The notes under the pieces are model-generated. The model was not told the origin of the DNA, searched no databases, and saw only the letters and a list, made by a program, of their open reading frames with translations. A stretch of 64,000 nt of DNA from Microbulbifer thermotolerans (lineage in GTDB: Bacteria > Pseudomonadota > Gammaproteobacteria > Pseudomonadales > Cellvibrionaceae), in NCBI RefSeq assembly GCF_900112305.1, contig NZ_FOKT01000008.1:1-64000 (forward strand), written 5' to 3'. The translations under genes and the position numbers were made by a program. Each line of letters opens with the position of its first letter. The first letter of the stretch is position 1. Of the stretch, positions 40,124-56,008 are shown piece by piece.

Positions 40124-40588
40124 ATGAGTGAACAAAAGGCAATACAGGATCAGATCCCGGGCAACCACTGTTTCGGCTGCGGCCCGGAAAATGAACGGGG
40201 ACTGCGCATCAAAAGCTACTGGGATGGTGAAGATAAAACCCGCTGCGAGTTCCTGCCGCTCCCCCATCACAATGCGGGCCCACAGCAATACCTAAACGGC
40301 GGTATCATAGCCACCGTAATCGATTGCCACACGGTGTGCACAGCCATCGCCGATGCCTACCGGCAGGCGGGACGAGACCCGGGCACAGGAGACAAAATCT
40401 GGTATGCCACCGGGAAACTGGAGGTGAACTACCGCGCACCGGCAGCCATCGACAAGCCGGTCATTCTCGAGGCAACCATCATCGAACGCTCAAATCGAAA
40501 AACGCTGCTGCACTGCACCCTCTACAGCAGTGGACGCGTTTGCGCCACGGCCGAGGTGGTGGCAGTGCGGGTGCCGGACAACTGGTAA
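40124..40588 (+). CDS. PaaI/hotdog-fold thioesterase
   Basis: A 154-residue single hotdog domain, seen from the N-terminal NHCFGCGPENERGLRIKSYW, then YLNGGIIATVIDCHTVCTAI (the central helix with the active-site Asp region), TGKLEVNYRAPAAIDKPV and ATAEVVAVRVPDNW. Members hydrolyse acyl-CoA thioesters as dimers or tetramers. The CFGCG start is typical of a subgroup common in proteobacteria. It is a single gene, convergent with the ion-channel gene. The acyl substrate is not predictable. Confidence 0.87.
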   Translation: MSEQKAIQDQIPGNHCFGCGPENERGLRIKSYWDGEDKTRCEFLPLPHHNAGPQQYLNGGIIATVIDCHTVCTAIADAYRQAGRDPGTGDKIWYATGKLEVNYRAPAAIDKPVILEATIIERSNRKTLLHCTLYSSGRVCATAEVVAVRVPDNW

Positions 40589-40630
40589 TCCGGGCGCGGC
40601 AGTGCCGTAACGATAGCGCAAATGCGACGG

Positions 40631-41458
40631 CTACAGCTCCGCATGGAGGTCCTCCAACTTGTAGCCACAGTACTTACAGTACTCCGCATCCCGATCGTGC
40701 CCCGCCCGGCTGCAGTTATCGCAGCGGCGCAGACTGCGTTCCTGATGCAGCTCGGAAGCCAGTTCCGCGGTCACTATGCCGGTGGGCACGGCAATAATGG
40801 AATAGCCGATCAACATGGTCATGGAGGCAATCGCCTGCCCCAGCACGGTGTGTGGCGAAATATCGCCGTAGCCCACGGTGGTAATGGTCACAATGGCCCA
40901 GTAAACGCTCTTCGGGATACTGGTGAAGCCGTGTCCGGGGCCCTCCACCAGGAACATCAGCGCACCGAATATCACACACATTACCAGTACGCTGGCGTAA
41001 AAGACCAATATCTTGCGCCGCGCCAGGCCAAATGATCGCAACAGCACATTGGCATCGCGCAGATAACGCACCAACTTGAGCACACGGAATATGCGCAACA
41101 CCCGCAACAACCGCACAACCAGCAGATAGCTTGCTCCGGTGTACACCAGTGCCAAATAACTCGGTAATATCGCCAGCAGATCGACAATACCGTAAAAACT
41201 GAAGATATAACGGCGGCGCTCCACGGCACAGTAGATACGCAAGAAGTACTCGACGGTAAACAAAGCGGTAAAAAACCACTCGAGCGCAAAGAGGGTTTCA
41301 CCGTAACGGCCGGCAATGCGCTCCACCGAAGCCAGCAACACCAGCCCGACACTGACCAGGATGGCCCAGATCAAAAAAACATCGAAGTTTCTTCCGGCCG
41401 GTGTATCCGTACCGAAAATCACCTCATTGAGCCATTTTCGTCTACCTGTCAGTGCCAT
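40631..41458 (-). CDS. Voltage-gated potassium-channel-like protein with C-terminal zinc ribbon
   Basis: A 275-residue six-segment channel subunit. The voltage sensor S4 is RLLRVLRIFRVLKLVRYLRD, with a basic residue every third position; the selectivity filter TTVGYGD lies near residues 193-199 between the pore helix (SVYWAIVTI) and S6 (IASMTMLIGYSIIAVPTGIV). After S6 comes a short cytosolic tail with two CxxC pairs (RCDNC and YCKYCGYKL), a zinc-ribbon-like end. It should form a K+-selective tetramer in the inner membrane. The ribbon may serve assembly or metal sensing. It is a single gene, divergent from yciH. Confidence 0.9.
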   Translation of the reverse strand: MALTGRRKWLNEVIFGTDTPAGRNFDVFLIWAILVSVGLVLLASVERIAGRYGETLFALEWFFTALFTVEYFLRIYCAVERRRYIFSFYGIVDLLAILPSYLALVYTGASYLLVVRLLRVLRIFRVLKLVRYLRDANVLLRSFGLARRKILVFYASVLVMCVIFGALMFLVEGPGHGFTSIPKSVYWAIVTITTVGYGDISPHTVLGQAIASMTMLIGYSIIAVPTGIVTAELASELHQERSLRRCDNCSRAGHDRDAEYCKYCGYKLEDLHAEL

Positions 41459-41578
41459 GGTTCCTCCGGAAAAAACCGCACTATAGCGCCGGCGCCTTTT
41501 TACCGGAAGCGACAGGTGACAGACCCGGCCTGGTACCGTACCCTTGCGCGGTCGAAAACGGGTGAAATAGTGGTTGCC

Positions 41579-41902
41579 ATGAAAAAAGAAAGCCGCCTCG
41601 TCTACTCCACCGACCGGGGGCGCATCAAGGAAACGTCTAAAACGGAAATCCGCCGCGAGGGCGATGGCGTAGTGCGCATCCAGCGTGAAACCAAGGGGCG
41701 CAAAGGCAAAGGAGTAACCTGTGTGCGCGGCCTCGGCGGCACCGATGCAGAACTGAAGCTGCTGCTGGCGGAGCTGAAGAAACGCTGTGGCTGCGGCGGA
41801 GCTCTCAAAGACGGGGTGATCGAGATCCAGGGCGACAAGCGCAGCGAAGTCAAAGCCCTACTCGAGGCGAAGGGTTTCACAGTGAAGATGGCGGGCGGCT
41901 GA
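41579..41902 (+). CDS. yciH: SUI1/eIF1-like translation factor YciH
   Basis: A 107-residue protein matching E. coli YciH (108), the bacterial eIF1 homologue that discriminates against aberrant initiation complexes and non-AUG starts. The family core is KGRKGKGVTCVRGLGGTDAE, LKLLLAELKKRCGCGGALKD and VIEIQGDKRSEVKALLEAKG. The ATG at 41579 gives the family length; a GTG at 41516 would add an unlike leader. The gene stands alone between the divergent channel gene and the convergent M48-like gene. Confidence 0.92.
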   Translation: MKKESRLVYSTDRGRIKETSKTEIRREGDGVVRIQRETKGRKGKGVTCVRGLGGTDAELKLLLAELKKRCGCGGALKDGVIEIQGDKRSEVKALLEAKGFTVKMAGG

Positions 41903-41910
41903 AGCCGCCT

Positions 41911-44388
41911 CTACACCTGCTTCACCAAGCGCAGCGGGCGAATCTGCAGCGCCTGCTCTCTTTTCAGGCAGAGTTCCACCAACCGCGCCAACTGTATCCG
42001 GTAGTGTTCGTAAATGGCCGCACAGGCATTCTTGCTTCTGAGTTCCAGTGCCTGCAAAGCATCCACGAGTTCCTGGCGCCGCTGCGGCAGTGCCATTGAC
42101 GCAGTGTCACCCAGGCGCTCCCGCAGCGCCGTATCCAGGCCCAGAGCGCGCAGATCCGCGGAAGCCTTTACCGCTGTGAGGAGCCCCTCCAGCGCCTGCC
42201 CCGCCATTAAAAAATATTTTTGTACCAGTTCGCGCTGAGCGGCTTGGAGAGACAAGCGGTCGATCATCAGGCTAAGAATGTCCACGTAGCTCTCCAACTT
42301 CTCCAATCGCAGCGCCAGATCCGAATAGGCGCGCAATGCCGCAAGCTGCCGCTGGGCCGGCTGCCGCTCAGCTGCGGACATGGATTGTAGCGCGCGCTGC
42401 ACGCGCAAAAAGAAAACCCGGTGAATCTGCGTTAACTGTTGCTGCAGCTCTCCCCGCTGGACCCGGTTGTCGCGGATACATTCCTCCGCCGCCGCCGGCG
42501 TGGCACCGCTGAGGAAGAACGCCCGCGGATCGATCTTTTCCTGAATTTTGATCAGGCCTGTGCCCAGCTGCATGGCCGCGCCGCGTGCACGCAACTCCTC
42601 GCCGCGCTGTTCCAGCTCCCGCAGCTCGACCAGCTTGCTCCGCAACCAGTCAACCGTCTCTTGCAAATCCATCGACTGCATCGTCTCACCCGCGGGCAGC
42701 TCCAGCGCCAGGAAGCGGCGCGGGGGCATTTGATTGAAGTACTCTCCCAATACCTTTTGCGCCTGCTCCGCCTCCTTGCTGACGCAGAGCAGCTGCCGGT
42801 TTTCCACTGGGCGTGCCCCATCGGGAGCCACCAAAGCACTGACCGCCTCGGCAGCGGCCTCGGGGTTGTCAAACAACTTGCGGAAGGAAAAATCCCGCCC
42901 GACCAGCGGTTGCAGATTAAGCGCCTCGACCGCGGCAATACGGTCGTTGTCAGGCGGCTGGGTAACATCCCAGGCATCGCTGGTCTGCGCCATTGCCAAT
43001 TCGATATTGGAGCGGGTCTCGCCGTCGAGGTTGTTCAATATCCAGTGCACCGCCTCGGGGTAATCCCGCAGCCGCTGCCCTGATACCGATGCCTCGCGGT
43101 TGATTTCCGATACGAGCAACTCCGCGTGAATCAACTGGTGCCACTTTTCCGCGAAATGGGCATAGCCTTCGCTGCCGAGTATTTGCGCGGCCCAGGCATC
43201 GCCCCTACGCACCAACAGACGCGCAAGAGCCCCCGTCAACAGGCGGTGCCATTCACACAAGCGATCCACCAGGGGCAGTAGTACCCCACCACAGGCAGCG
43301 AAGAAAGTGTGTAGTGATTTGAGCCCACGGGGCTCCCCCTTGGGAGCGAGTATATGGCGCTCGTTTTCCAGCGCCCACTGCATTTGCTGCAGTCGCCGTG
43401 CGCTATCCAGTACCAGCCAAGTGGCAAGCCCGCTCAACTGGCCCCGGTAAATCCCCAGTGCCTGGGCGACCAGGGCCAGCATTTCACCACCACTCAGCGA
43501 GCGCACCGCTGCCAACCCGATGTTGAGAGGCAGTCGCTGGTGGCGAATATCCGTCAGCCCGGGCTGCGTCAGCACCTCTACACCGGCAGTTACGGATATG
43601 CGGTCCGCGACTGGCAGGCCGGCCTTTTCGGCCAACACCTCCAGTAAAAGGTATAAACCCGGCGCCTCCTGCCGCTTCAGCGGCACCGCGCGCCACTCCG
43701 GCTGCGCCAGACGCCGACCGGCAAAAAAAGGCCAGACGAAAAGTGCTGCGACAAATGCGGCCATCAATATCGCAAACAAACTACCGACAGCGGTGAGCGC
43801 ACTGAATTGCCCCGCAAAAACCGCCTGGGGAATCCGCCACAGCGCGCTTGCCGCGCCGTATGCACACACTCCCGCCAAAAAAACAAACAGCGCCGGAACC
43901 AGTGCCGCCGGGAAGAGCCCCAGCAACAGCTGCATTTTTTCCGCCGGAGACTCGCTCACGGCCGGTGACGCTTCGACAAATAGCGCATCGATCTGCGCTC
44001 TGGCACTGTCGCGTGGCTTCTCTGCCGAAGGCGCCGCCGCCGTAGGGGAGTCCGGCTTGACCCGCGCCGCTTTTTTTACTGACTGGGCGGAGGCTCGCGC
44101 CCGCCGCTTCTGCGCGAACTGCATCCGCGCAACCAGTGCTCGGTTATCAAACTTTCCGGCCGGAAACACCTCCACTTTGAGGCCGATTTGCTGCAGCCGT
44201 ACGCGGTATTCCAGCGCTTGTTTCGACGATAGTTGGTCCTTGATCACCCAACCCTTGAGCAACAACCTACGCGCCTGGGACAGAGGAATGGAAAAAGCCT
44301 GTGCCGCATCCCGCAGCACCTCCTCCGGCGCCCTGGCACGCAGCGTCTTTCCCGCGGAAACCAGCTGATATTTTTCCTGCCCGGACAT
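41911..44388 (-). CDS. Large M48-like membrane protein lacking the zinc site (pseudopeptidase)
   Basis: An 825-residue protein with a short N-terminal domain (KYQLVSAGKTLRARAPEEVL), a basic linker, two membrane segments (about residues 155-230, including LFPAALVPALFVFLAGVCAY) and an M48-like block. That block has the lead-in LKRQEAPGLYLLLEVLAEKA and LPLNIGLAAVRSLSGGEMLA, but HELGH is replaced by QALGI (VAQALGIYR), and the usual ExxAD ligand region reads RRGDAWAAQILG. Both zinc-binding elements are therefore lost. A long helical C-terminal half follows, with coiled-coil-like stretches such as LRELEQRGEELRARGAAMQ. The ATG at 44388 has GGGGAG upstream. It is probably a structural or regulatory protein; its role is unknown. 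Confidence 0.7.
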   Translation of the reverse strand: MSGQEKYQLVSAGKTLRARAPEEVLRDAAQAFSIPLSQARRLLLKGWVIKDQLSSKQALEYRVRLQQIGLKVEVFPAGKFDNRALVARMQFAQKRRARASAQSVKKAARVKPDSPTAAAPSAEKPRDSARAQIDALFVEASPAVSESPAEKMQLLLGLFPAALVPALFVFLAGVCAYGAASALWRIPQAVFAGQFSALTAVGSLFAILMAAFVAALFVWPFFAGRRLAQPEWRAVPLKRQEAPGLYLLLEVLAEKAGLPVADRISVTAGVEVLTQPGLTDIRHQRLPLNIGLAAVRSLSGGEMLALVAQALGIYRGQLSGLATWLVLDSARRLQQMQWALENERHILAPKGEPRGLKSLHTFFAACGGVLLPLVDRLCEWHRLLTGALARLLVRRGDAWAAQILGSEGYAHFAEKWHQLIHAELLVSEINREASVSGQRLRDYPEAVHWILNNLDGETRSNIELAMAQTSDAWDVTQPPDNDRIAAVEALNLQPLVGRDFSFRKLFDNPEAAAEAVSALVAPDGARPVENRQLLCVSKEAEQAQKVLGEYFNQMPPRRFLALELPAGETMQSMDLQETVDWLRSKLVELRELEQRGEELRARGAAMQLGTGLIKIQEKIDPRAFFLSGATPAAAEECIRDNRVQRGELQQQLTQIHRVFFLRVQRALQSMSAAERQPAQRQLAALRAYSDLALRLEKLESYVDILSLMIDRLSLQAAQRELVQKYFLMAGQALEGLLTAVKASADLRALGLDTALRERLGDTASMALPQRRQELVDALQALELRSKNACAAIYEHYRIQLARLVELCLKREQALQIRPLRLVKQV

Positions 44389-44792
44389 TGCGCGCTCCCC
44401 AGACAATAAGTGACAGGCAGTGTCACATTTGAACCGAATGAGCGGCGGAGCCTAATGGATTCCGCCAGCATAGGGTGAGCACTGGTTCTCAACGGAATGG
44501 CCACTGGCGGCGTTTTTTACAAAAGCCGGTGGGGCGCACAGATTCAAAGAGAAAAAAACCCGTCTTTACTGAGTAGCACGCCCCATGCACGACGTGAAAA
44601 TACACACGGAGAGGGGCTTCCCCATACGCCGCGCTGCTACACACACGCCTCTCTTTCGAGGAGCCCACATATTGATCCGCGCGCGCACTAAAGTAGATGA
44701 CCAGCGACCGCCTCCCCAACGGCTTGTATTGCCTGCCGGCGACCGGCAGAATTCGCCGCGAACCGCCCCAGGCAAAAAAAGGAAGCAACCCC
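44389..44792. other. Divergent intergenic region
   Basis: Four hundred bases between the M48-like gene and the S9 peptidase gene. No convincing gene; it must contain the two divergent promoters. An in-frame ATG for the S9 gene at 44697 lacks a ribosome-binding site. Confidence 0.5.
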
Positions 44793-46739
44793 ATGAGCGA
44801 CGCCACCGCAGTAAAAACCGCTCCATTCGGCAGCTGGAGATCCTCCATAGATGCGGATCTGCTGGTCCAAGGCAGTGTGCGCCTGAGTGAAGCCAGCCTG
44901 GTGGACGGGCGCTACTATTGGCTGGAATCCCGCCCGGCGGAAAAGGGCCGCTCTGTGCTAGTGCAGTTTTCCCCGCAAGAAGGCAGGCGCGATGTGCTCC
45001 CGGCGCCCCTTAGTATCCGCTCCAAAGCGCACGAATACGGCGGTGGCAGCTATTTGGTCGACGGCAACACCGTCTACTTTGTACTGGCGGACGACCAGCA
45101 AATCTACCGCATGGATTTGAACAGCCAGCTGCCAGAACCCATTACCGCGGAAAACAACAGCCGCTATGCTGATCTCACCCTCGACCGCAAACGCAATCGC
45201 CTATTGTGCGTGGAGGAAGACCACACTCCATGCGCCCGAGGCGGACAGCCGGTGGCACGCATACTGTCCATTGATCTGGACCGACCACTGCAGAATGCAC
45301 CACGCATTCTCGCTCAGGGCGCCGACTTTTATTCCAATCCCCGACTGAACCCCAAAGGCGACCGGCTCTCCTTTCTGCGCTGGCACCACCCGGACATGCC
45401 CTGGGATGCCACTGAACTCTGTGTGGCCGAACTGGATGCCGATGGAAACGTAAGTGATGTCGCCCAGGTCGCCGGTGGCAGCGGGGAATCGATTTTCCAG
45501 CCACAGTGGTCCCCGGAGGGGGAGCTGTTTTATGTCTCGGACAAAAGCAACTGGTGGAACATCTACCGCCTGGGCAGCGAGCGTCCACTGTGGGAAAAAA
45601 AAGCCGAATTCGCCACACCGCAGTGGGTATTCGGTATGTCCACCTACGGTTTTCTAACCTCAGACGAAATCCTGTGCACTTTCACCGAAAGCGGCCGCTG
45701 GCAATTGGCAACCATCGATATTCACAGCGGCGAGCACCGGCTGCTGGCACTCCCCTACTGCGACATCGAAAGTGTCCGCTGTGAAAGCCACAGCGCCGTG
45801 ATGATCGCCGCTGGCGCCGATCGCTTCCCGGCGGTGGTGTCCTACAACAGCCACAGCGGTAAATTCGAGACCATCGCCAGCAGCAATAACACCACTCTGC
45901 AACCAGCGCTTTTCTCCATTGCCCAAGAAATTGAATTCCCCGCTGGCGGACGCAGTGTGTACGGCTTTTACTATCCGCCACACAATCCGGCCTACACAGC
46001 GCCGGAAGGTGAAAAACCACCGCTGATTGTATTCAGCCATGGCGGTCCCACCGGAGCCACCTCCGCCGGGCTAAATCTGAAAATCCAGTACTGGACCAGC
46101 CGCGGCTTTGCCATTCTGGATGTCAACTATTCCGGCAGCACCGGCTTTGGCCGCGCTTACCGGGAACGTCTGCGCGGCAGCTGGGGAATCACCGATGTAG
46201 AGGACGTCTGCGCCGGGGCTGAATACCTGGTCGCCAAGGGGCTGGCGGACCCGGAGCGGCTGTTGATCAAGGGCGGCAGTGCCGGCGGTTACACGGTACT
46301 CGCGGCACTGACTTTCCACAATACATTTAAGGCCGGAGCCAGTCACTATGGTATCGGCGATCTCACCACACTGGCTCGGGACACGCACAAATTCGAATCC
46401 CGTTATCTGGACAAGTTAGTGGGCCCCTGGCCGGAAGCGGAAGCCATTTACCGAGAACGGTCGCCGATCCAACACGTGGAACAGCTGAACTGCCCGGTAA
46501 TCTTCTTCCAGGGTTTAGAAGACAAGGTAGTGCCTCCCAGCCAGGCGAAAACCATGGCCGATGCGCTGAGACGGCGCGGTATACCGGTGGCTTATATTAC
46601 CTTCGCAAATGAAGGGCACGGATTCCGCAGTGGCGAAAACATAAAAATGTCACTGGAAGGCGAGCTGGAATTCTACAGCCGCATTTTCAATTTCCCTCTG
46701 CCGGAATCCGGCCCCGGCATTACCATTGAGAACCTGTAA
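44793..46739 (+). CDS. S9-family (prolyl-oligopeptidase-type) serine peptidase
   Basis: A 648-residue protein with an N-terminal beta-propeller (blades with phrases such as KAHEYGGGSYLVDGNTVYFV and FLRWHHPDMPWDATELCVAE) and a C-terminal alpha/beta-hydrolase domain. The catalytic triad is visible: Ser in KGGSAGGYTVLAAL, Asp in FQGLEDKVVPPSQA and His in FANEGHGFRS. HGGPTGATSAGLN forms the oxyanion region. It resembles the acylaminoacyl/dipeptidyl-peptidase S9C branch that trims short peptides. No signal peptide, so cytosolic. AAGGAAG precedes the chosen ATG. greB follows after 16 bp and is likely in the same transcript. Confidence 0.9.
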   Translation: MSDATAVKTAPFGSWRSSIDADLLVQGSVRLSEASLVDGRYYWLESRPAEKGRSVLVQFSPQEGRRDVLPAPLSIRSKAHEYGGGSYLVDGNTVYFVLADDQQIYRMDLNSQLPEPITAENNSRYADLTLDRKRNRLLCVEEDHTPCARGGQPVARILSIDLDRPLQNAPRILAQGADFYSNPRLNPKGDRLSFLRWHHPDMPWDATELCVAELDADGNVSDVAQVAGGSGESIFQPQWSPEGELFYVSDKSNWWNIYRLGSERPLWEKKAEFATPQWVFGMSTYGFLTSDEILCTFTESGRWQLATIDIHSGEHRLLALPYCDIESVRCESHSAVMIAAGADRFPAVVSYNSHSGKFETIASSNNTTLQPALFSIAQEIEFPAGGRSVYGFYYPPHNPAYTAPEGEKPPLIVFSHGGPTGATSAGLNLKIQYWTSRGFAILDVNYSGSTGFGRAYRERLRGSWGITDVEDVCAGAEYLVAKGLADPERLLIKGGSAGGYTVLAALTFHNTFKAGASHYGIGDLTTLARDTHKFESRYLDKLVGPWPEAEAIYRERSPIQHVEQLNCPVIFFQGLEDKVVPPSQAKTMADALRRRGIPVAYITFANEGHGFRSGENIKMSLEGELEFYSRIFNFPLPESGPGITIENL

Positions 46740-46755
46740 TAACGAGTAATACACA

Positions 46756-47268
46756 ATGGCAAGATGGAGACCACCGCGCCCGCGCGGCTCCCGCTATATC
46801 ACACCAGAAGGCGCGCGGCGTATGCGCGCTGAACTGAAACAACTGTGGGAAGTGGAGCGACCCCGCGTTACCCACGCTGTCAGCGAGGCCGCCAAGCTGG
46901 GGGATCGCTCCGAAAATGCGGACTATATCTACGGCAAGAAACGCCTGCGCGAAATCGACAGCCGGGTGCGTTTCCTCACCAAGCGGTTGGAGGAAGTCAC
47001 TGTGGTGGACCGCATCCCGGAAGATACGGAAAAGGTCTTCTTCGGCGCCTGGGTAACTCTCGAAGACGACGAGGGCAATAGTAAAACCTACCGCATCGTC
47101 GGCCCTGACGAATTCAACGTAAAGGCTGGGTTGATCTCCATGGACTCCCCCGTGGCCCGCGCCCTGCTGGGCCGACGTCTCGACGACGAGGTGGAGCTCA
47201 AGAACAGTGACCGTTGGACTCGCTACTACATTGTAGATATCCGCTACGAGCAGCCCGACAAGACATAG
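46756..47268 (+). CDS. greB: Transcription elongation factor GreB
   Basis: Rescues backtracked RNA polymerase by stimulating cleavage of the nascent 3' end. The 170-residue protein has the coiled-coil arm with the acidic tip (AAKLGDRSENADYIYGKKRL; the two acids of GDRSENAD coordinate Mg2+ in the polymerase) and the C-terminal FKBP-like domain (FFGAWVTLEDDEGNSKTYRI, IVGPDEFNVKAGLISMDSPV, ALLGRRLDDEV). GreB rather than GreA is indicated by the basic N-terminus and by YIYGKKRLREID. It is 16 bp after the S9 peptidase gene. Confidence 0.95.
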   Translation: MARWRPPRPRGSRYITPEGARRMRAELKQLWEVERPRVTHAVSEAAKLGDRSENADYIYGKKRLREIDSRVRFLTKRLEEVTVVDRIPEDTEKVFFGAWVTLEDDEGNSKTYRIVGPDEFNVKAGLISMDSPVARALLGRRLDDEVELKNSDRWTRYYIVDIRYEQPDKT

Positions 47269-47396
47269 ATACTCCGCAGGCTGCCCGCCACTGAACCCCG
47301 ATGGTTCTGTTCTTACCGGCCTATCCAGCGGCTACGAAAAAAAATCATTTCGCGCCCTTGAAAAATTCGATTTCACACCCACATCTCGCCCCTGTA

Positions 47397-47425
47397 TGCG
47401 CCCCGAGGAGGCGCGCACATCTTTT
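47397..47425 (+). terminator. Possible terminator in the greB downstream region
   Basis: GCGCC at 47398-47402 pairs with GGCGC at 47410-47414 around CCGAGGA, followed after five bases by CTTTTT. It is a short stem about 130 bp after greB, so only a weak call. Confidence 0.35.
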
Positions 47426-47461
47426 TACCATTTGATTTTTTATGATCTTTACGGAGGTTGT

Positions 47462-47545
47462 ATGGAAAAATCATCTGGTCACCCAAACCACTTCATGACG
47501 TTTTCCTTTGGCGGGGATTCCACTCCCGCAACGAATCCGCCCTAG
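47462..47545 (+). CDS. Possible 27-residue small protein or leader peptide
   Basis: An ATG preceded by a strong ribosome-binding site (GGAGGT five bases upstream) opens a 27-codon frame starting MEKSSGHPNHFMTFSFGGDS and ending TPATNPP before a TAG at 47543-47545. It stands alone, 182 bp upstream of the inositol-phosphate synthase gene in the same direction. The peptide is hydrophilic and not recognised. It could be a translated leader for the inositol operon, a small protein, or a chance frame with a good ribosome site. Confidence 0.4.
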   Translation: MEKSSGHPNHFMTFSFGGDSTPATNPP

Positions 47546-47727
47546 TTGATCTCCGGAGCCGACCTTTTTTCGACGGCCTCCACTTTCTGTAGTCCCTTCA
47601 TTTGCCAACGGCGCACTGTCCTGATGGCCGCTGCTCCTTTGTGTTCAGCCGGGCCGTGTCCGCTCCGTGGCGAAAACAGGGAATCCAGTCTTGTTGACCA
47701 ACACACTGAACAATACAGAGGTGAAGC

Positions 47728-48885
47728 ATGAAAAGAATCAAGGTTGCCATTGCCGGCATTGGGAACTGCGCCAGCTCTCTGATTCAGGGTATCCACTACT
47801 ACCGCAACCGGGATCCACAAGAGGCGGCCGGACTCATGCACCCGGTGATTGGTGGCTACGGTGTCAGTGACATCGACATTGTCGCCGCCTGGGATATTGA
47901 CGCCCGCAAGGTCGGGCAGGATGTTGCTACGGCCATCTTTGCCCCGCCCAACTGCACCCAGGTGTTCTGCAAGGATATTCCGCCCACTGGCGTCAAGGTG
48001 CGCATGGGCCGAATCCTCGACGGTTATTCCGACCACATGGCCCAGCATCCCCAGGAGCACACCTTCGTACTGGCGGACCAGCCGGAGCCGGACAAGGATA
48101 CGGTGGTCTCTCTGCTCAAGGAGAGCGGCGCCGAGGTGTTCATGAACTACCTGCCGGTGGGATCCGAGGAGGCCAGCCGCTTCTACGCCGAGTGTGCCCT
48201 GGAAGCGGGGGTCGCCTTCGTCAACAACATCCCCGTATTCATCGCTTCCGACCCGCAATGGGCCAAACGCTTCGCAGAGAAAAAGGTGCCCATCATCGGT
48301 GATGACATCAAGGCGCAGCTGGGAGCGACCATCACCCACCGCACCCTGACCGACTTGTTCAGGAAGCGGGGGGTCAAACTGGAGCGCACCTACCAGCTCA
48401 ATACCGGTGGTAATACGGACTTCCTCAACATGAAGAATCAGGACCGCCTCGCCTCCAAGAAGGAGTCCAAAACCGAAGCGGTACAATCCGTTGCCGCCAA
48501 GCGGCTGGACGAAGCCAATATCCATGTGGGTCCCAGCGATTACATCCCCTGGCAGAAGGACAACAAGGTCTGCTTCCTGCGCATGGAAGGCAAGCTCTTT
48601 GGGGATGTACCCATGAACCTGGAGATGCGCTTGTCCGTTGAAGACTCCCCCAACTCCGCCGGGGTGGCCATCGACTCCATCCGCCTTGCCCGACTGGCGC
48701 TGGACCGGGGTATCGGCGGAGTTCTAGAGGGGCCCAGTGCCTACCTGTGCAAGCATCCGATGAAGCAGTACCCGGATGACGAAGCCTATCGCATGACAGA
48801 AGCCTTTATTCAGGACAACAGGGTGGACCTCGATGAAGTGCGTCATACTGGCCGCTGGACAAGGCCGGCGGCTGAAGCGGTCTGA
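47728..48885 (+). CDS. ino1: Inositol-3-phosphate synthase (myo-inositol-1-phosphate synthase)
   Basis: Cyclises glucose 6-phosphate to L-myo-inositol 1-phosphate with catalytic NAD+. The 385-residue length is that of the short prokaryotic/archaeal type. NAD-binding VAIAGIGNCASSLIQGIHYY, MNYLPVGSEEASRFYAECAL, the active-site PIIGDDIKAQLGATITHRTL and YQLNTGGNTDFLNMKNQDRL with the catalytic lysines downstream (PSDYIPWQKDNKVCFLRMEG) are all present. GAGGTG lies just before the ATG. The 3' end overlaps the next gene by 53 bp. It heads a three-gene operon that would turn its product into CDP-inositol and then an inositol phosphodiester. Confidence 0.95.
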   Translation: MKRIKVAIAGIGNCASSLIQGIHYYRNRDPQEAAGLMHPVIGGYGVSDIDIVAAWDIDARKVGQDVATAIFAPPNCTQVFCKDIPPTGVKVRMGRILDGYSDHMAQHPQEHTFVLADQPEPDKDTVVSLLKESGAEVFMNYLPVGSEEASRFYAECALEAGVAFVNNIPVFIASDPQWAKRFAEKKVPIIGDDIKAQLGATITHRTLTDLFRKRGVKLERTYQLNTGGNTDFLNMKNQDRLASKKESKTEAVQSVAAKRLDEANIHVGPSDYIPWQKDNKVCFLRMEGKLFGDVPMNLEMRLSVEDSPNSAGVAIDSIRLARLALDRGIGGVLEGPSAYLCKHPMKQYPDDEAYRMTEAFIQDNRVDLDEVRHTGRWTRPAAEAV

Positions 48886-50146
48886 CAGCAAACCCCTCAC
48901 ATCCCTGTTGGGTCTTCCCCTGATCGAGAGGACCATGCGCACCGCCATGGAGGGCGGTGTCACGGGATTTGTCGTGGTGACCGGCTACCAGGCCGAGCGG
49001 GTCAGCACCTTTGTCAGGGCTCTGGGAGAACGGCTACAGGTCGAGGTCACCACGGTAAACAACCCGGATTGGGAACACCGGGAGAACGGCTATTCGTTAC
49101 TCTGCGCCCGCCCGTATCTGCAGCAGGCCCCCTTTCTGCTGACTATGGCCGACCACCTCTTTGAGGCGGATACGGTGCGCCGGTTGCTGGGCGCCTCCCT
49201 GCCGGAGGGCGGCATCCTGCTGGCCTGCGACCACCACCGGTGCAATCCGCTGGTGGATCTGGAGGATGTCACCCGAGTACGGGTCGATACCCACAGCGGA
49301 GCCATCCAGGCAATCGGCAAGGGATTGGCGGACTACAACGCCTTTGACACCGGCCTGTTTCTCTGTGCACCCGGTTTTCTCGACCGGCTCCAGGAGGCCA
49401 TCGACACCGGTGACAGCACCCTTAGCGGTGCCGTGCGCAGACTGGCCGACCAGGGACAGGCGCGAACACTGGATGTGAGCGGTGCCTTCTGGATCGATGT
49501 AGATGATGACGCCGCTTTCCGCCGGGCGGAAGAGGCCCTGCTGGGGCTGGCTCGGGGCAAGGAGCGGGACGGCCCCGTCTCCCGCTATCTGAACCGCCCC
49601 CTCTCGGCGCGGCTGTCTAAACGCCTGGCCTACACCGGGCTGACGCCCAATCAGATCAGTCTGTTCTCCTTTGGGCTCTCGCTGCTCGGTGCAGCGCTGA
49701 TGCTGATCCCCCACTACTGGGGGCTATTACTGGGCGGCATTCTGGCCCAGGGGGCGTCCATTGTGGATGGCTGCGATGGGGAAATCGCCCGGCTCAAACA
49801 CCAGCAGAGCGACTACGGCGGCTGGTTGGATGCGGTACTGGATCGCTACTCCGACGCCCTGCTGCTCACCGCGCTCGCCCTGCACTGCTGGCAAATCGGT
49901 ACTCCGGCTGCCATCCCCATCGGCTTTCTCGCGGTCACCGGGGCTCTGGTGCTCAGCTATACGGCGGACAAGTACGACGGCCTCATGCGTGACAAGGGCG
50001 GCAGTCGCTTCCGCCTGGGGCGGGATCTGCGCCTGCTGGTGATCGCCCTGGGGGCCCTCTTCAACCTGCCCCTCACCACCCTGGTGGTGATCGCCACAAC
50101 CATGAACGGGGAAGCGATCCGCCGTATGGTGGTCTGCCGTGGATAG
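48833..50146 (+). CDS. Bifunctional inositol-1-phosphate cytidylyltransferase / CDP-alcohol phosphotransferase (IPCT/DIPPS type)
   Basis: A 437-residue fusion. The N-terminal nucleotidyltransferase (residues about 1-235) opens with the sugar-nucleotide motif VILAAGQGRRLKRSDSKPL and has TMADHLFEADTVRRLL and FWIDVDDDAAFRRAEEALL. The C-terminal half is a membrane CDP-alcohol phosphotransferase with the full motif DGCDGEIAR...G...D...D (DGCDGEIARLKHQQSDYGGW continuing LDAVLD, about residues 311-338), the four Asp being the metal and catalytic residues, plus several membrane segments. This architecture is that of archaeal and thermophile IPCT/DIPPS, making CDP-inositol and condensing it with inositol 1-phosphate. 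A lipid or other alcohol as acceptor is the alternative. Confidence 0.88.
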   Translation: MKCVILAAGQGRRLKRSDSKPLTSLLGLPLIERTMRTAMEGGVTGFVVVTGYQAERVSTFVRALGERLQVEVTTVNNPDWEHRENGYSLLCARPYLQQAPFLLTMADHLFEADTVRRLLGASLPEGGILLACDHHRCNPLVDLEDVTRVRVDTHSGAIQAIGKGLADYNAFDTGLFLCAPGFLDRLQEAIDTGDSTLSGAVRRLADQGQARTLDVSGAFWIDVDDDAAFRRAEEALLGLARGKERDGPVSRYLNRPLSARLSKRLAYTGLTPNQISLFSFGLSLLGAALMLIPHYWGLLLGGILAQGASIVDGCDGEIARLKHQQSDYGGWLDAVLDRYSDALLLTALALHCWQIGTPAAIPIGFLAVTGALVLSYTADKYDGLMRDKGGSRFRLGRDLRLLVIALGALFNLPLTTLVVIATTMNGEAIRRMVVCRG

Positions 50147-50717
50147 GGTTCTGCAACAGGCCATGGCGGCCATTCGCCGCTATATCGCCGGCTCCTCCAC
50201 CGAGGAGGATCCGGCCCATGCGGACAACACTCTGGAGTGGTTGCTGCGGCTCAGGGCGGACGCGGATCCAGCCCTGCAGCTGGCGGCTCTAGGGCACGAT
50301 ATCGACCGAGCCTCCCCCGACAAGGTCCGCCGCCAGGACTTTGCCGATTACGATGCCTTCAAAGCGGCCCACGCCCACCATGGGGCACAGCTACTGGAAC
50401 GGCTGCTGGAGGAACAGGGGGTGGAGCGGGCAATCATCGAGCGCTCCTGCCAACTGGTACGCCTGCATGAGGTGGGCGGTAACGAAGATGCGGACCTGCT
50501 CCGGGACGCGGACAGCCTCTCCTATTTTGATACCAACCTGCCGCTTTATCTGCGCCGGGAGGGGGAAGCGGAGGCCCTGCGCCGCAGTCTCTGGGGCTTG
50601 CGGCGGCTCTCCCCTCGCGGGCTGGCGCTGCTGCGACAGCATCCGGTGACAGACCCGGCAGCGGCGGCTGTCCTGACCCGCGCCCTGGCACTGTTCGACC
50701 GGCTCGACAGCGGCTGA
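50139..50717 (+). CDS. HD-domain metal-dependent phosphohydrolase-like protein
   Basis: A 192-residue cytosolic protein with HD-superfamily spacing: His27 (EDPAHADNTLEWLL), His53-Asp54 (LAALGHDIDRAS), His78/His80/His81 (FKAAHAHHGAQLL), a later His in VRLHEVGGNEDAD and the acidic LLRDADSLSYFD. These residues would bind two metals and hydrolyse a phosphate ester. The GTG start at 50139 overlaps the preceding stop by 8 bp, so it is co-translated with the IPCT/DIPPS-like gene. Position suggests it removes the phosphate from the phosphorylated inositol product. I do not recognise the exact HD subfamily. Confidence 0.75.
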   Translation: MDRVLQQAMAAIRRYIAGSSTEEDPAHADNTLEWLLRLRADADPALQLAALGHDIDRASPDKVRRQDFADYDAFKAAHAHHGAQLLERLLEEQGVERAIIERSCQLVRLHEVGGNEDADLLRDADSLSYFDTNLPLYLRREGEAEALRRSLWGLRRLSPRGLALLRQHPVTDPAAAAVLTRALALFDRLDSG

Positions 50718-51131
50718 CCGGGAGCCAGCCTTCGCTACGGCCAGAAGTCCAAAGCTATCGCCCACTGCTCTGCAAACCTCGGCCTGGCTCTACGCAGCCT
50801 CCGATAAACACAAGGCTTACCCACCACCCAGTGTGCAGTCTCAAAAGGCGATAGCCACTCGGGGTTAAAATCCGCTGTCCGGTGGAAAGTCAGGCGCCAG
50901 CTGCGCAAAAATCCAGTCCGGATTCTGAACCGATGATCTACATTGATAGCGGCCTGTGATCGGACCATCAGTCGCACAATGACATCCGACCGGGTGCTGT
51001 AATTCCCCCCAAGGTTCATCGTTTCCCACCACTGGTTGGCGTTAGCCGCAATGCCTCGGGACCGGTGGCGCAATCGATGTGTGGTTCAAATACTCCCTGA
51101 ACAAAAATGCCGGGTGGCAAAGGAGATTCAT
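50718..51131. other. Intergenic region before the patatin gene
   Basis: About 410 bp. A minus-strand open frame at 50735-51073 is Arg/Trp-rich, lacks a ribosome-binding site and is not believed. The right end holds the patatin ribosome-binding site AGGAG. Confidence 0.5.
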
Positions 51132-52478
51132 ATGGGAAGTTCAAATTGGTTTGAGAGCGCAATCGCCAAGGCGGATGCGCAATGGGAACTATCCAAGTCC
51201 CACATTATTGGCAATACCTACAGCGATGTTCGCGACGACGAGGGCCATCAATATGTCGACCTGGTTCTGGAAGGCGGTGGTATGCTGGGCATCGCGCTGG
51301 TCGGCTATACCTACGTCCTGGAAAAAGCCGGCATCCGCTTTCGCAAAATAGCGGGAAGTTCGGCCGGCGCCATCAACGCTCTGTTCCTCGCCGCAGCCGG
51401 TAAGCCCAATGAAATCAAGAGCGAGCGACTGTTGACGATTTTGTCCAATACTGACTTCTCCAGTTTCGAAGACGGCAGGGATTTCAGTAAGAAAACGGTC
51501 CAGCGACTGCTCTCCGGCAAGGGTTTCTTCGGCGCCCTCGCCTTGCATCCGATCGATGCCTTCCGCACCCTGCAATACCTACTCAAGCACAAGGGATTAA
51601 ATCCCGGCGACAACTTTAAGCAGTGGCTGCAGGATCAGCTCAAGCAGTTGGGCATAGAGTCCACCGCGCAACTCAACACGCGAATTAATCAGTTTCCGGC
51701 CCTGAAATACCGTGGCAAGAAGGACACCCAGGTGGGCAATGGCGCCGTTGCCCTGGTCGCCGCGGATATCCGTACGGAAACCCGGGCCATATTCCCAGAG
51801 ATCGCTCAGCTTTACTTTTCCAATCCCGATGCGGTCAACCCCGCGGAGTATGTGCGCGCGTCCATGTCGGTACCCGGTTTCTTCGAACCGCATCGAGTGC
51901 GCAATATTCCCCATATCGAACTCCACAGCGAAGTGGCGGAGAACTGGAAAAAGTTCAAGGGGATCAGGAACCCGAAAACCTTCTTTAAAAAGGGTTTCCC
52001 CCAAAGCGTGGAGTTTGTCGATGGCGGCTTGGTCTCCAACTTTCCCTTTGATATTTTCCATATCAAATCCGGCGTACCCAAGCTGCCTACCTTCGGCGTC
52101 AAACTGGAACTGGATCTGTACCAGCCGACTAGCAACAAAATCGGCCGTTTCACCATGGGGCTGATCAACACTTGCCGGAACATGCTCGACAACCACTTCC
52201 GCGCCAGTGTGAACGCGGAGTACAACCAGCTGGTTAAAGAAATCGCAATCACCAGACTGGCGAACGGTGAGCGCCCGCACTGGCTGGATTTCTCCATGCC
52301 ACAATCACACTTGGAGCACCTGTTCGTGTGCGGCGCCCGCGCAGCCATCGACTTTCTGCGCAAGGACCCGGCCGACCCCAACCAGGGTTTCAGCTGGGAT
52401 AAGTACCTGCAAATCCGCATGACAGAGGCACCCCTGCCCACAGTGGTCGAACCCGAAGTGGAGAAGCAGGAGCAGTAA
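51132..52478 (+). CDS. Patatin-like phospholipase
   Basis: A 448-residue acyl hydrolase with the Ser-Asp dyad of patatins: oxyanion loop GGGMLGIAL (from residue 48), nucleophile Ser77 in IAGSSAGAINALF and Asp297 in EFVDGGLVSNFPFD. The usual Arg of GGGxRG is absent. There is no signal peptide or membrane segment, so it acts on membrane lipids from the cytosol or at the inner face. AGGAG with seven bases spacing precedes the ATG. No cyclic-nucleotide synthase or other CBASS gene adjoins, so a phage-defence effector role is not supported. It is likely a housekeeping or lipid-turnover enzyme. Confidence 0.9.
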   Translation: MGSSNWFESAIAKADAQWELSKSHIIGNTYSDVRDDEGHQYVDLVLEGGGMLGIALVGYTYVLEKAGIRFRKIAGSSAGAINALFLAAAGKPNEIKSERLLTILSNTDFSSFEDGRDFSKKTVQRLLSGKGFFGALALHPIDAFRTLQYLLKHKGLNPGDNFKQWLQDQLKQLGIESTAQLNTRINQFPALKYRGKKDTQVGNGAVALVAADIRTETRAIFPEIAQLYFSNPDAVNPAEYVRASMSVPGFFEPHRVRNIPHIELHSEVAENWKKFKGIRNPKTFFKKGFPQSVEFVDGGLVSNFPFDIFHIKSGVPKLPTFGVKLELDLYQPTSNKIGRFTMGLINTCRNMLDNHFRASVNAEYNQLVKEIAITRLANGERPHWLDFSMPQSHLEHLFVCGARAAIDFLRKDPADPNQGFSWDKYLQIRMTEAPLPTVVEPEVEKQEQ

Positions 52479-52602
52479 TCCGCTTTCTCTGGCAGCGCCG
52501 CGCCCCGCGCGCGGTGCTGTTGTGCCCGGAATATTGCCCCGCACCTCACAGCAACCCGACACTTACCTCGAAAAGCAGTCTCCTGTCGCGCATTCGCACA
52601 CT

Positions 52603-52621
52603 TCAATCAGAGGTTCTCTAA
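52603..52621 (+). repeat. Right-end relic of the dispersed element
   Basis: TTCAATCAGAGGTTCTCTA matches the right end of the dispersed elements with TA at the border. No left partner is seen. Confidence 0.45.
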
Positions 52622-52661
52622 AATCATGCAATGGCATCTTTGAGAGGCCACCGGAGTAGCG

Positions 52662-53966
52662 ATGCAGCAACCCCCACCTCCAGCCAGCACCAAAGACGCA
52701 ATACCTGAATCGCTAAAAGCATTTATCGACTCGGAAAGTGTCATCGCCTTTGCCATTGCGCTGGGACTGGGCCTGTTAATAGGACTGCAGCAGGAAAGGA
52801 CGAAAGACCGCCTTGGCGGGATTCGCACCTACCCGCTGATCGGTATTTTCGGCGCCCTCGCCGCTAGAATCGGCGCACTGAACGACATTCCCTGGCTGGT
52901 ACCCACCGGACTGCTGTGCATGACGACACTGATCGTACTCGGCAATCTGGAGCGGATTCGCGGCGAGCAGGAAAGCAGTGGTATCACCACAGAAGTGTCC
53001 GCCCTGCTGATGTACCTGCTGGGCGCTTTTCTGATTCTCGGCGATTTGTCGGTGGCTGTTGTCCTCGGCGGTACCACCGCCGTGCTGTTGCACTTGAAGC
53101 CCAGCATGCACCGGTTCGCCCACAAGCTACCGGAACAGGACCTGCATGCCATCATGCAGTTTGCGCTGATCTCAATGATCATTCTGCCGGTACTGCCCAA
53201 CCGTACCTTCGGTCCCTATGACGTGCTCAACCCTTTTAAAATCTGGCTTTTAGTGGTCTTGATTGTCGGCATTGGTCTTGGGGGTTACGGCGCCTACAAG
53301 CTCGTGGGCGCACGCGCCGGCACTCTGCTGAGCGGCTTGATCGGTGGCCTGATCTCCTCTACTGCCACCACAGTCAGCTACGCGCGCCGCGCAAAGACCG
53401 AAAAGGGGGTGGTGAACATGGTGGCACTGGTGATACTGATCGCCTCTACCAGCATGTTTATCCGCATGTTTGTCGAAATTGCCGTGGTAAGCCCACACAT
53501 GATGTCCAGGCTGCTGCCACCGCTGGTATTTTTACTGGCGGTCAATGTCGCCACCTGCGCGGTGGCTTACCGCTTCGCGGAACACCGCAATAGTGAAATG
53601 CCAGAACAGAGCAACCCCGCGGAATTGGTGCCGGCGCTGCTGTTCGCCGCACTCTTTGCCGTCATTCTGCTGGCCATTGCAGCCGCCCGTGATTATTTCG
53701 GCGACCGGGGGATTTACGTAGTCGCCCTGATCTCTGGTTTTACCGATGTGGACGCCATTACGCTTTCCAGTGCCAATCTCGCCGAGCGCGGCACGCTTTC
53801 CCCTTCCACCGCATGGCGTGCCATGGTTATCGCCCTGCTGGCCAATCTGGCATTAAAAGCCGCAGCAGCGGGTGTGCTTGGTGGCCAGTTACTGTTCCGC
53901 CGACTGCTACTGCTTTTTGCCGCGCCATTTGTTTCCGGACTGGCAGTGATTCTGCTCTGGCCCTGA
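52662..53966 (+). CDS. MgtC/SapB-type membrane protein with DUF4010
   Basis: A 434-residue polytopic protein. The N-terminal third is MgtC/SapB-like: AFAIALGLGLLIGLQQERTK, LGGIRTYPLIGIFGALAARI and EVSALLMYLLGAFLILGDLS. The C-terminal part is DUF4010, with YKLVGARAGTLLSGLIGGLI, SSTATTVSYARRAK and VVALISGFTDVDAITLSSAN. Around a dozen hydrophobic segments are present. MgtC relatives affect Mg2+ and pH homeostasis; the DUF4010 form is common in free-living bacteria and its transport role is unproven. It is a single gene, convergent with maeA. Confidence 0.9.
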   Translation: MQQPPPPASTKDAIPESLKAFIDSESVIAFAIALGLGLLIGLQQERTKDRLGGIRTYPLIGIFGALAARIGALNDIPWLVPTGLLCMTTLIVLGNLERIRGEQESSGITTEVSALLMYLLGAFLILGDLSVAVVLGGTTAVLLHLKPSMHRFAHKLPEQDLHAIMQFALISMIILPVLPNRTFGPYDVLNPFKIWLLVVLIVGIGLGGYGAYKLVGARAGTLLSGLIGGLISSTATTVSYARRAKTEKGVVNMVALVILIASTSMFIRMFVEIAVVSPHMMSRLLPPLVFLLAVNVATCAVAYRFAEHRNSEMPEQSNPAELVPALLFAALFAVILLAIAAARDYFGDRGIYVVALISGFTDVDAITLSSANLAERGTLSPSTAWRAMVIALLANLALKAAAAGVLGGQLLFRRLLLLFAAPFVSGLAVILLWP

Positions 53967-54011
53967 GCGCGCCGACGCAACGGCAGCGCTCACGCCAATG
54001 ATCAGAAGGCT

Positions 54012-55691
54012 TTAGAAGGAGCGGCGGCGGTAGTGCCGATAACAGGGGGTCCAGAAATTGCGTTCGATAGCGCGCAAAAGTCGCTCATCGTCCACCACTG
54101 GAGCCACACCATCTTCCTGGGCCTGCTTAGCCACCGCAAAGGCGATGCTGCGGCTCAAGTCGCGGATTTCCGAAAGTGGCGGCAACAGTGCCCCCTCCCC
54201 TTTTTTCACTACTGGCGATTGCTCCGCCAACGCATTGGAAGCCGCCATCAGCATATTATCGGTCACCCGGCGGGCACCGGCGGCGATCACGCCGAGACCG
54301 ATCCCAGGGAAGATATAGACGTTGTTGCACTGTGCAACCACATGGCACTGCCCGTCCAGTTCCACAGGCTCAAAAGGACTTCCGGTGGCCACCATTGCCC
54401 GGCCCTGAGTCCAGTTGAAGATATCCTGAGGCCTGGCTTCGGCACGGGAAGTGGGGTTTGAGAGGGGCAGCACCAGGGGCCGCGCGCAGCCCTCGTGCAA
54501 GCGCTCGATCACCTCGCGGGTAAACAGTCCACCCTGCCCCGACACGCCGATGAGAACGGTGGGCTTTACCTGCGCAATCAGATCGGTCAGCTCCCACTCA
54601 GTCGAGCCTTCCAGTTTAGCGGGGTCCTGGGCCAGCCGGGCCTGAAAATCATGCAGCCCCTTCATGTCTTTGGTAACCAGGCCGTAACGGTCAAACATAT
54701 AGATGTGGCTTCTGGCCTGCTCTTCACTCAGCCCCTCATCCACCATGGCGGTAACTATCTGCTCAGCGATACCACAGCCGGCGGAGCCGGCTCCCACCAC
54801 CACAACGCGCTGCTCGGCAAGACTTTCCTTTTTCGCTTTACAGGCCGCGAGTATGGTTCCCAGACTCACGGCGGCGGTGCCCTGAATATCATCGTTAAAG
54901 CAGCACAGCTCATCTCGGTAGCGCTGTAACAACGGCATCGCATTGGCCTGGGCGAAATCCTCGAACTGCACCAATACCCGCGGCCAACGGCGCTTGACCG
55001 CGGCGATAAACTCGCCCACAAACTCGTCGTACTCCTCCTGAGAGATGCGCTCGTGCCGCCACCCCATATACATGGGATCGTCCAACAGCGCGCGATTATT
55101 GGTGCCCACATCCAGCATCACCGGCAATGTATAGGCGGGGCTGATGCCACCACAGGCGGTGTACAGGGACAGCTTGCCAATGGGGATACCCATGCCGCCG
55201 ATCCCCTGGTCTCCCAGACCGAGAATGCGCTCGCCATCAGTCACCACGATCACTTTGACATTCTCCTTGGTCGCGCTGCGGAGTATGTCGTCCATATGTT
55301 CACGATCGGGGTAGGAAACGAAAAGCCCACGGTGATTGCGATAAATATTGGAAAATTCCTCACAAGCGGCACCCACCGTCGGCGTATAAATAATCGGCAG
55401 CATCTCTTCGATATGCTGCTCGATCAAATGGAAAAACAGTGTCTCGTTATCATCCTGGATAGCGCGCAGATAAACATGGCGATCCAGATCCGTCTTGCAC
55501 TGCTGGTATTGACGGTAGGCCCGGCGGGCCTGCTCCTCGATAGATTCCACATTATTCGGCAGCAGGCCGATGAGGTTGAATTCAATCCGCTCCTTCAACG
55601 TAAAGGCACTGCCCTTGTTGAGTAGCGGCATTTCCAACAGAGAAGGTCCGGCGTGCGGGATATAGAGGGGGCGTTTATCTTTGGTGCTCAT
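54012..55691 (-). CDS. maeA: NAD-dependent malic enzyme
   Basis: Oxidatively decarboxylates malate to pyruvate. The 559-residue length and sequence match E. coli MaeA/Sfc[41 protein letters not shown] (catalytic Tyr), [40 protein letters not shown] with [15 protein letters not shown] (metal-binding acids), the Rossmann [18 protein letters not shown] and [20 protein letters not shown]. It supplies pyruvate from C4 acids, coupling to serine deamination by SdaA only in the general sense of pyruvate supply. A dispersed element begins about 100 bp upstream of its start. It is a single gene. Confidence 0.96.
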
Positions 55692-55790
55692 AAACCTGCT
55701 TACATCTTGTGCATTTGGGCTGCCACTGCAGCAAAGCGGGAAGACTAGCGACTGCTCCCGGGGATCACAAGACCCAAACAGAGTTCATCT

Positions 55791-56008
55791 AAGAAACCTC
55801 TGATTAAGTCACTTTCTGGTGGCAGAGGCGCTTCGGGGGCGGATGTGAAGCTCAGGTGATAGGACGGGCATTTCGAAACCGTCGGATACAGGGATGTATC
55901 CGTCGGAGCTACAGGGAAGTACTCGTACGTTTTCGAAATGTCCGTCCTATTGCCTGAGCGCCCCGGAAGCTACCATAGTGTCCACGCGAATTAATCAGAG
56001 GTTCCCTA
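55791..56008 (+). repeat. Full-length dispersed cruciform element, copy 6
   Basis: Ends AAGAAACCTCTGATTAAGTC and GAATTAATCAGAGGTTCCCT with TA borders. It differs from copy 3 (25170) by only a few bases, including the GCAGAGGCGCTTCGGGGGCG block, so both arose recently from one source. It lies in the maeA upstream region. Confidence 0.9.

Follow-up and report, generated by a model that had tools for sequence, protein, structure and literature searches.

The first 64,000 nucleotides of contig NZ_FOKT01000008.1 of Microbulbifer thermotolerans (the window) contained three overlapping genes at 47728-50717, encoding a myo-inositol-1-phosphate synthase (MIPS), a fusion of a CTP:inositol-1-phosphate cytidylyltransferase (IPCT)-like domain with a CDP-alcohol phosphotransferase domain (P0002; the fusion), and a protein of the DUF4202 family (P0003; Table 1). 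Coordinates and Pfam matches agreed with the overlapping operon of MIPS, fusion and HD-protein genes given in a preliminary description of the window. The overlap between MIPS and the fusion was 53 nt, the ATG of the fusion lying within the MIPS gene, and that between the fusion and P0003 was 8 nt, P0003 starting with GTG. The same gene order with overlaps was seen in other genomes (e.g., loci L003-L005), and the operon arrangement is therefore not due to chance. A promoter scan at the operon found none and was uninformative. The MIPS was the sole PF01658 match of the genome and passed the cut-off of that family (122.9 bits; cut-off 27); it matched PDB entry 1gr0 (E = 1.6e-119) and scored below the cut-off of the equivalog model TIGR03450 (442.6 bits; cut-off 638).

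Table 1. Genes of the operon and of the two edges of its insertion site (positions in the window).
Feature	Coordinates	Strand	Evidence
MIPS, 385 aa, mycothiol-INO1-like type	47728..48885	+	PF01658, TIGR03450, PDB 1gr0
Fusion P0002: IPCT-like / CDP-alcohol phosphotransferase	48833..50146	+	Pfam, NF041135, PDB, AlphaFold2 model
P0003: DUF4202 / HD-type predicted metal-dependent phosphatase, 192 aa	50139..50717	+	PF13875, conserved residues, AlphaFold2 model
GreB-like gene, left edge of insertion site, outside the pathway	46756..47268	+	Pfam
Patatin-like gene, right edge of insertion site, outside the pathway	51036..52478	+	Pfam

The fusion comprised a cytidylyltransferase-like domain (residues ~1-240) and a CDP-alcohol phosphotransferase domain (residues ~245-437), with Pfam matches to NTP_transf_3 (59.7 bits) and CDP-OH_P_transf (43.1 bits). 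The transferase motif, previously described as perfect, was exact (D312-x2-D315-G316-x2-A319-R320-x8-G329-x3-D333-x3-D337), and none of the 81 aligned rows (P0002 plus 80 relatives) lacked any of the eight signature residues. In the functional sense, the protein thus had the build of the bifunctional IPCT/DIPPS, in which IPCT is joined to the synthase of phospho-di-myo-inositol phosphate (DIPP): a cytidylyltransferase fused to a CDP-alcohol phosphotransferase with a complete signature. The solved proteins closest to the whole fusion by sequence were 4mnd (IPCT/DIPPS of A. fulgidus), 4o6m (AF2299) and 2xme (IPCT). The AlphaFold2 model had a mean predicted local distance difference test score (pLDDT) of 93.3, placed the transferase domain in the membrane, and had 4mnd as its best structural match in PDB (template modelling score, TM, 0.78/0.83). 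Against PDB sequences, the C-terminal domain scored 160 bits with AF2299 (4o6m), 83 bits with DIPP synthase (4mnd) and 26 to 29 bits with phosphatidylinositol-phosphate (PIP) synthases. Phosphatidylglycerol-phosphate (PGP) and cardiolipin synthases, a placement that the preliminary description had set against its own assignment, were rejected, as the 10 PDB sequences that this domain matched at E ≤ 1 included neither; the fusion scored 26.4 bits with the PGP-synthase model PRK10832 (cut-off 304).

The fusion shared with the IPCT/DIPPS of hyperthermophiles (4mnd; NF041135) the domain order, the eight signature residues, the equivalent of R400 and the best structural match, but differed in standing in an operon with MIPS and DUF4202 genes; the Archaeoglobi-type fusions inspected had no adjoining match to DUF4202 or to inositol monophosphatase (IMPase). 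Archaeoglobi-type outgroup rows lay apart on the tree of fusions, and the present fusion is therefore a separate branch despite its IPCT/DIPPS-like build. AF2299 was closest in the transferase domain, and the pattern of E427 and R430-R431 was common to AF2299-type rows (L232-L234), but its N-terminal domain had no match to the IPCT part of the profile (alignment beginning at column 223). The PIP synthases of Renibacterium and Mycobacterium (5d92, 6h53) shared the signature and the Arg155 equivalent, but had the low scores given above and their donor-binding Pro153 was Asp in the fusion.

In the excerpts of PMC4634129, R155 and R195 of the PIP synthase of M. tuberculosis are required for inositol phosphate, R155 binds the acceptor phosphate, P153 lies at the lipid donor, and the structure of AF2299 contains CDP-glycerol. 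In a phmmer alignment with chain 6h53, numbered by hand count, R400 of P0002 paired with R155, D398 with P153 and S375 with S132. Of the 81 rows, 79 had Arg at the position of R400 and two (L018 and L019) had Asn; the 37 archaeal rows that covered this position all had Arg. Asp398, at the position of the donor-binding proline, was kept in 81 of 81 rows, as were R430 and R431, which were also common to AF2299-type rows. Actinomycete PIP synthases, sought as an arginine reference, were matched in 1 of 16 genomes, below cut-off, and were not used. As read from the alignments, the acceptor-site pattern favours a phosphorylated acceptor without telling which.

The DUF4202 protein P0003 passed the cut-off of PF13875 (66.7 bits; cut-off 35.1) and scored below that of the HDIG model TIGR00277 (23.3 bits; cut-off 27.6). 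It had been called an HD-domain protein, which the family bore out: all 46 aligned DUF4202 members matched PF13875 and 41 of them also matched Pfam HD, P0003 itself having the DUF4202 match only. Across the 46 sequences, H53, H78, H110 and D125 were invariant, H27 and D54 were kept in at least 90%, and E111 was invariant or nearly so. The resulting H...HD...H...H...D pattern, together with the presumed ligands, is one that we take to fit metal-binding HD phosphohydrolases. The AlphaFold2 model of P0003 had a pLDDT of 96.5, and HD-type proteins ranked first in its Foldseek search (YpgQ, TM 0.62). P0003 resembled the HD hydrolases YpgQ and YqeK in predicted fold and in this pattern; it differed from them in its operon context and in that phmmer and profile searches of PDB gave no convincing sequence match. 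In a second DUF4202 subfamily (L329, L331), the DUF4202 gene was preceded by genes resembling, by eye, molybdenum hydroxylase subunits and followed by a HAD-type hydrolase gene, on which NCBIfam was run in L329 only.

The neighbourhood of the fusion was compared in 80 loci, which were the best 80 of 108 relatives from a single scan that used degenerate patterns derived from P0002. This set leans towards close relatives of P0002, and the archaeal and Bacteroidota samples described below reach further out. The record titles named Gammaproteobacteria, Alphaproteobacteria, Bacteroidota, SAR324, Nitrospirae, Atribacteria, ANME-1 archaea and others. In 58 loci a MIPS gene was found no more than ~3 kb from the fusion. 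DUF4202 was directly 3' of the fusion (≤ 250 bp, mostly overlapping) in 54 loci, and an IMPase-type gene was directly 5' of it, on the same strand and without DUF4202, in 11. Taken together, 65 of the 80 loci had a phosphatase-type gene adjoining the fusion, and the two types occurred together in the operon in none; L044 had DUF4202 plus an IMPase gene 1 kb away on the opposite strand, and L043 had DUF4202 plus a non-adjacent IMPase gene. Neither gene was found in 15 loci, three of which end at a contig edge (L023, L069, L077). Pfam matched IMPase in five of six loci tested (L066, L070, L073, L076, L082) and not in the 94-residue piece of L080; L076 and L080 reach the contig end, and MIPS was not visible in either. 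A scan of the 80 loci with an IMPase motif found no additional adjacent IMPase gene and two non-adjacent ones, those of L043 and L044. The home-made IMPase profile missed the divergent IMPase of the Bacteroidota locus L274, which Pfam found.

Two further kinds of gene recurred near the fusion. Glycosyltransferase and/or GH130 mannooligosaccharide-phosphorylase-like genes were seen in ANME-1 and some bacterial operons (L025, L032-L034, L039, L027, L012, L035, L056), which suggests a glycosylated inositol phosphodiester there. PfkB-type kinase genes were seen near the fusions of L018, L019, L024, L038, L045, L051, L073 and L205, of these, six belong to the 80-locus set and have no MIPS, and L073 has MIPS; the kinase genes may encode inositol kinases giving inositol phosphate via salvage.

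A quick maximum-likelihood tree was built from 92 fusions, of which 56 rows were labelled DUF4202 and 13 IMPase, with an Archaeoglobi-type outgroup; the two states needed two changes on it. One lay on the branch leading to a clade of 14 rows, which were mainly from Alphaproteobacteria and included the gammaproteobacterium G154; the other was L274, a long branch whose placement is unsure. With the outgroup, both changes to IMPase fell among DUF4202-bearing lineages. Distances of fusion and DUF4202 were correlated over 37 loci (r = 0.937; 0 of 999 permutations as high), and the correlations were lower for MIPS with the fusion (r = 0.759) and for MIPS with DUF4202 (r = 0.690); loci with partial genes (L008, L011, L028, L032, L036, L068) and the duplicate L001 were excluded. 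The permutations ignore shared ancestry, and the correlation therefore shows co-inheritance, not function.

A full-length or nearly full-length fusion was present in 8 of 274 gammaproteobacterial genomes. Strong DUF4202 matches (E < 1e-70) occurred in seven of the 274, all bearing the fusion, and the eighth fusion genome (G154) had the order MIPS-IMPase-fusion; at least genomes G288, G233 and G209 are not independent of loci L003, L004 and L014. The IPCT part alone was matched in seven more gammaproteobacterial genomes, with a weak transferase match on a separate gene at some of these loci (L114, L117, L120), and no DUF4202 or IMPase match was found at the seven loci (L116 ends at a contig edge). 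In Bacteroidota, 30 of 296 genomes matched, 3 with full fusions and 27 with the IPCT part only. All three full fusions adjoined a phosphatase-type gene (DUF4202 in L024 and L273, IMPase in L274), and no DUF4202 or IMPase-type match was found near the 18 IPCT-only loci fetched of the 27. The IPCT-only loci L275-L292, L113 and L115-L120 held MIPS-like and stand-alone IPCT genes. Some IPCT-only loci had CDP-glycerol glycerophosphotransferase-like, flippase-like and glycosyltransferase genes as neighbours (Pfam scan of 69 of 99 neighbour proteins, Bacteroidota and Gammaproteobacteria pooled, none from L117 or L120; 25 of 48 families listed). The first two kinds hint at surface polymers, and CDP-inositol may possibly be used for surface polymers or lipids at IPCT-only loci.

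Searches started from DUF4202 in Gammaproteobacteria, in the 246 genomes of the ANME-1 phylum and in 395 genomes from the phylum of L031 gave 33 strong full-length loci; the fusion was the neighbour in 29, MIPS without a fusion in 2, and the other 2 were at contig ends (neighbours judged in 1.5-kb flanks; fragments L299-L301 and L319 excluded). Twelve weak DUF4202 loci (8 + 4) had neither fusion nor MIPS within the same flanks; the link to the fusion therefore belongs to one DUF4202 subfamily and not to all DUF4202.

The fusion was confined to one genome among the 144 searched in the host family, the other 143 lacking it; its closest relative among the best 80 of 108 was from Granulosicoccaceae (73% identical). 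Twelve congeneric GreB regions (L156-L167) were fetched, of 29 genus partners with a GreB match, and none of them matched any of the three operon proteins. GreB stood beside an S9 peptidase gene in 10 of the 12. Congeneric region L157 had the order peptidase-GreB-patatin-MgtC, with 287 bp from GreB to patatin and no operon. As the fusion is alone in the family and the site is empty in a congener with both flanking genes, the operon was probably acquired horizontally, to judge from these genome comparisons. The GC content of the operon was 63.2%, against 57.7 ± 3.0% for windows of equal size. The interval from GreB to MgtC ranged from ~0.1 to 5.8 kb in the eight regions with both genes found, length differences that indicate a variable site, and the site seems to take up genes often. 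Insertion via direct repeats or at a tRNA gene was rejected, the longest word common to the two gaps flanking the operon being 9 bases and no tRNA being found in 40000-56000.

With somewhat better than even confidence, the operon is read as having been gained by horizontal transfer and as directing synthesis of a soluble inositol phosphodiester, of which di-myo-inositol phosphate (DIP) is the likeliest, with the DUF4202 protein carrying out the dephosphorylation. For its steps, we infer the following substrates and the following activity of the DUF4202 protein. MIPS would convert glucose-6-phosphate to inositol-1-phosphate, and the cytidylyltransferase half of the fusion would make CDP-inositol. 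The membrane half would move inositol phosphate from CDP-inositol to a phosphorylated acceptor, most likely a second inositol-1-phosphate, to give phospho-DIP. The DUF4202/HD protein would take off the remaining phosphate, at the place held by an IMPase-family gene in related operons. Formation of CDP-inositol by the fusion is likely, and so is a phosphorylated acceptor; DIP is the best single guess for the product. That the DUF4202 protein is the phosphatase of the pathway is well supported by gene context in this branch of fusions. The preliminary description had held the context to be silent on the acceptor, which no longer stands, as DUF4202 or IMPase beside the fusion points to an acceptor that carries a phosphate and to a phosphatase acting after the transfer. 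Of the three products that it had left side by side, DIP, glycero-phospho-inositol and an inositol lipid, DIP is now the best and the lipid is disfavoured. On even chances, the fusion-linked DUF4202 subfamily is more widely the missing phosphatase of DIP synthesis, an HD-fold counterpart of IMPase that gave way to IMPase on two or more occasions and marks a DIP branch spread by transfer. The hosts of that branch would include many marine and subsurface bacteria and archaea, among them ANME-1 and Gammaproteobacteria, most of them apparently non-thermophiles.

Several results weigh against the DIP pathway or its DUF4202 step. The fusion scored 255.1 bits with NF041135, the NCBIfam equivalog for IPCT/DIPPS, below the cut-off of 580, and the A. 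fulgidus-type L225, as positive control, scored 641.8 bits; of the earlier assignment to IPCT/DIPPS, the two-domain build and the best fold (4mnd) were upheld, but NCBIfam does not place the protein among canonical DIPP synthases. The transferase half was closer to AF2299 than to the DIPP synthase of A. fulgidus, and alignments disagreed on the second acceptor Arg, which fell at column 427 for the Archaeoglobi type by MAFFT and, in 4mnd, at R431 by HMMER. Support for the HD fold was weak by Foldseek E-value (none at E ≤ 0.001). Twelve of the 80 loci had neither DUF4202 nor IMPase despite a continuing contig, and one locus of this kind (L059) had a different HD protein downstream. The switch to IMPase depended on the two changes on the quick tree, one of them on the long branch of L274. 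DUF4202 was paired with MIPS without a fusion in L125 (5137-6849) and L328 (8641-10397). In the ANME-1 phylum (including G417), 62 of 246 genomes had a fusion-type match (E ≤ 1e-30) and only 6 of the 62 also had this DUF4202 type, which occurred in 8 genomes of the phylum; the six with both held the fusions closest to the P0002 family (768 to 782 bits; next 521). In 38 archaeal regions (34 genomes) outside ANME-1, no DUF4202 or IMPase match was found beside the fusion, and a universal phosphatase slot beside the fusion was rejected on this count. The DUF4202 link therefore marks this branch of fusions, and other branches do without or use another gene. A HAD-type phosphatase gene lay directly 3' of one archaeal fusion (L214:265-912) and perhaps encodes another phosphatase of the same pathway.

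Because DUF4202 adjoins MIPS without a fusion in L125 and L328, inositol-1-phosphate might be its real substrate, and the protein would then be an inositol-1-phosphate phosphatase yielding free inositol rather than a phospho-DIP phosphatase, with DIP still possible as end product. The L328 pair was adjoined by a divergent gene resembling PIP or archaetidylinositol-phosphate synthases (105 bits to NF040950; cut-off 180), and an early DIP scheme has inositol monophosphatase hydrolysing inositol-1-phosphate (PMC1224877, in excerpt). This substrate is nevertheless doubtful: the fusion stood at 29 of 33 strong DUF4202 loci, DUF4202 distances tracked the fusion more closely than MIPS, and release of free inositol would draw on the substrate that the fusion needs. 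A regulator or a housekeeping HD hydrolase of nucleotide or alarmone type, travelling with the operon, would suit the nearest folds of P0003, which include YpgQ, YqeK and alarmone hydrolases; it is the least likely of the alternatives, as an IMPase-family gene often adjoins the fusion where DUF4202 is missing and both were in the operon in 0 of 80 loci.

The remaining alternatives concern the product. An inositol-lipid route in Rhodothermus marinus is said to have been described by Jorge, Borges and Santos in 2015. CDP-inositol might likewise donate to an inositol lipid here, the transferase half moving inositol phosphate to diradylglycerol; the predicted membrane embedding of that half would allow it, and the IPCT-only state of 27 of 30 matching Bacteroidota genomes implies that CDP-inositol, if made there, has other uses. 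A lipid acceptor is quite unlikely, however. It would leave no phosphate over, yet a phosphatase-type gene adjoined the fusion in the 65 loci counted above, and the IPCT-only loci inspected showed no such gene. R400 suits a phosphorylated acceptor. In the excerpts of PMC4634129, AF2299 and the A. fulgidus DIPP synthase do not process lipids, and lipid-acceptor enzymes such as eukaryotic phosphatidylethanolamine and phosphatidylcholine synthases typically have additional helices; the modelled fusion is predicted to stop about where 4mnd stops. Glycero-phospho-inositol, made from CDP-inositol and glycerol-3-phosphate or from CDP-glycerol and inositol-1-phosphate and then dephosphorylated, would need a phosphatase by either route, and the transferase domain was closest to AF2299, a CDP-glycerol binder (PMC4634129, in excerpt). 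The fused domain was related to CTP:inositol-1-phosphate cytidylyltransferases (2xme, 4jd0) and MIPS was near the fusion in 58 of 80 loci, which makes this product unlikely too.

Genes of DIP synthesis outside thermophiles are already published, and what is new is a specific predicted role for DUF4202. In excerpts of the respective papers, such genes are given for hadal and deep-sea Thaumarchaeota (PMC7265257, PMC10773090, PMC8397731) and proposed for SAR116 Alphaproteobacteria (PMC12262181), and in 2021 the Thaumarchaeota with DIP genes were called the first non-thermophilic organisms able to make DIP (PMC8397731). As far as these excerpts go, the sets resemble the present operon in having IPCT/DIPPS (merged in PMC7265257) or DIP-synthesis genes outside thermophiles. 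The Thaumarchaeota differ in the phosphatase gene, which is an inositol monophosphatase gene near the merged IPCT/DIPPS gene in PMC7265257 and is labelled 'IMP' DIPP phosphatase in a figure legend of PMC8397731, and which is DUF4202 here. A literature search on DUF4202 found no paper, which is weak evidence of absence because few subscription papers were covered; searches on di-myo-inositol with Atribacteria or with methane hydrate found none either. With the DIP pathway proposed here, DUF4202, a domain of unknown function, receives a precise predicted role open to testing; if true, the pathway would also widen the range of a solute long associated with hot marine life. If the operon works, it would be a compact three-gene cassette for DIP production in laboratory E. 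coli.

Elsewhere in the window, a gene at 59502-61856 encoded a large product that matched multihaem cytochrome and TPR models in NCBIfam, the matches displayed being below cut-off. It was adjoined by an arylsulfatase-like gene at 57747-59363.

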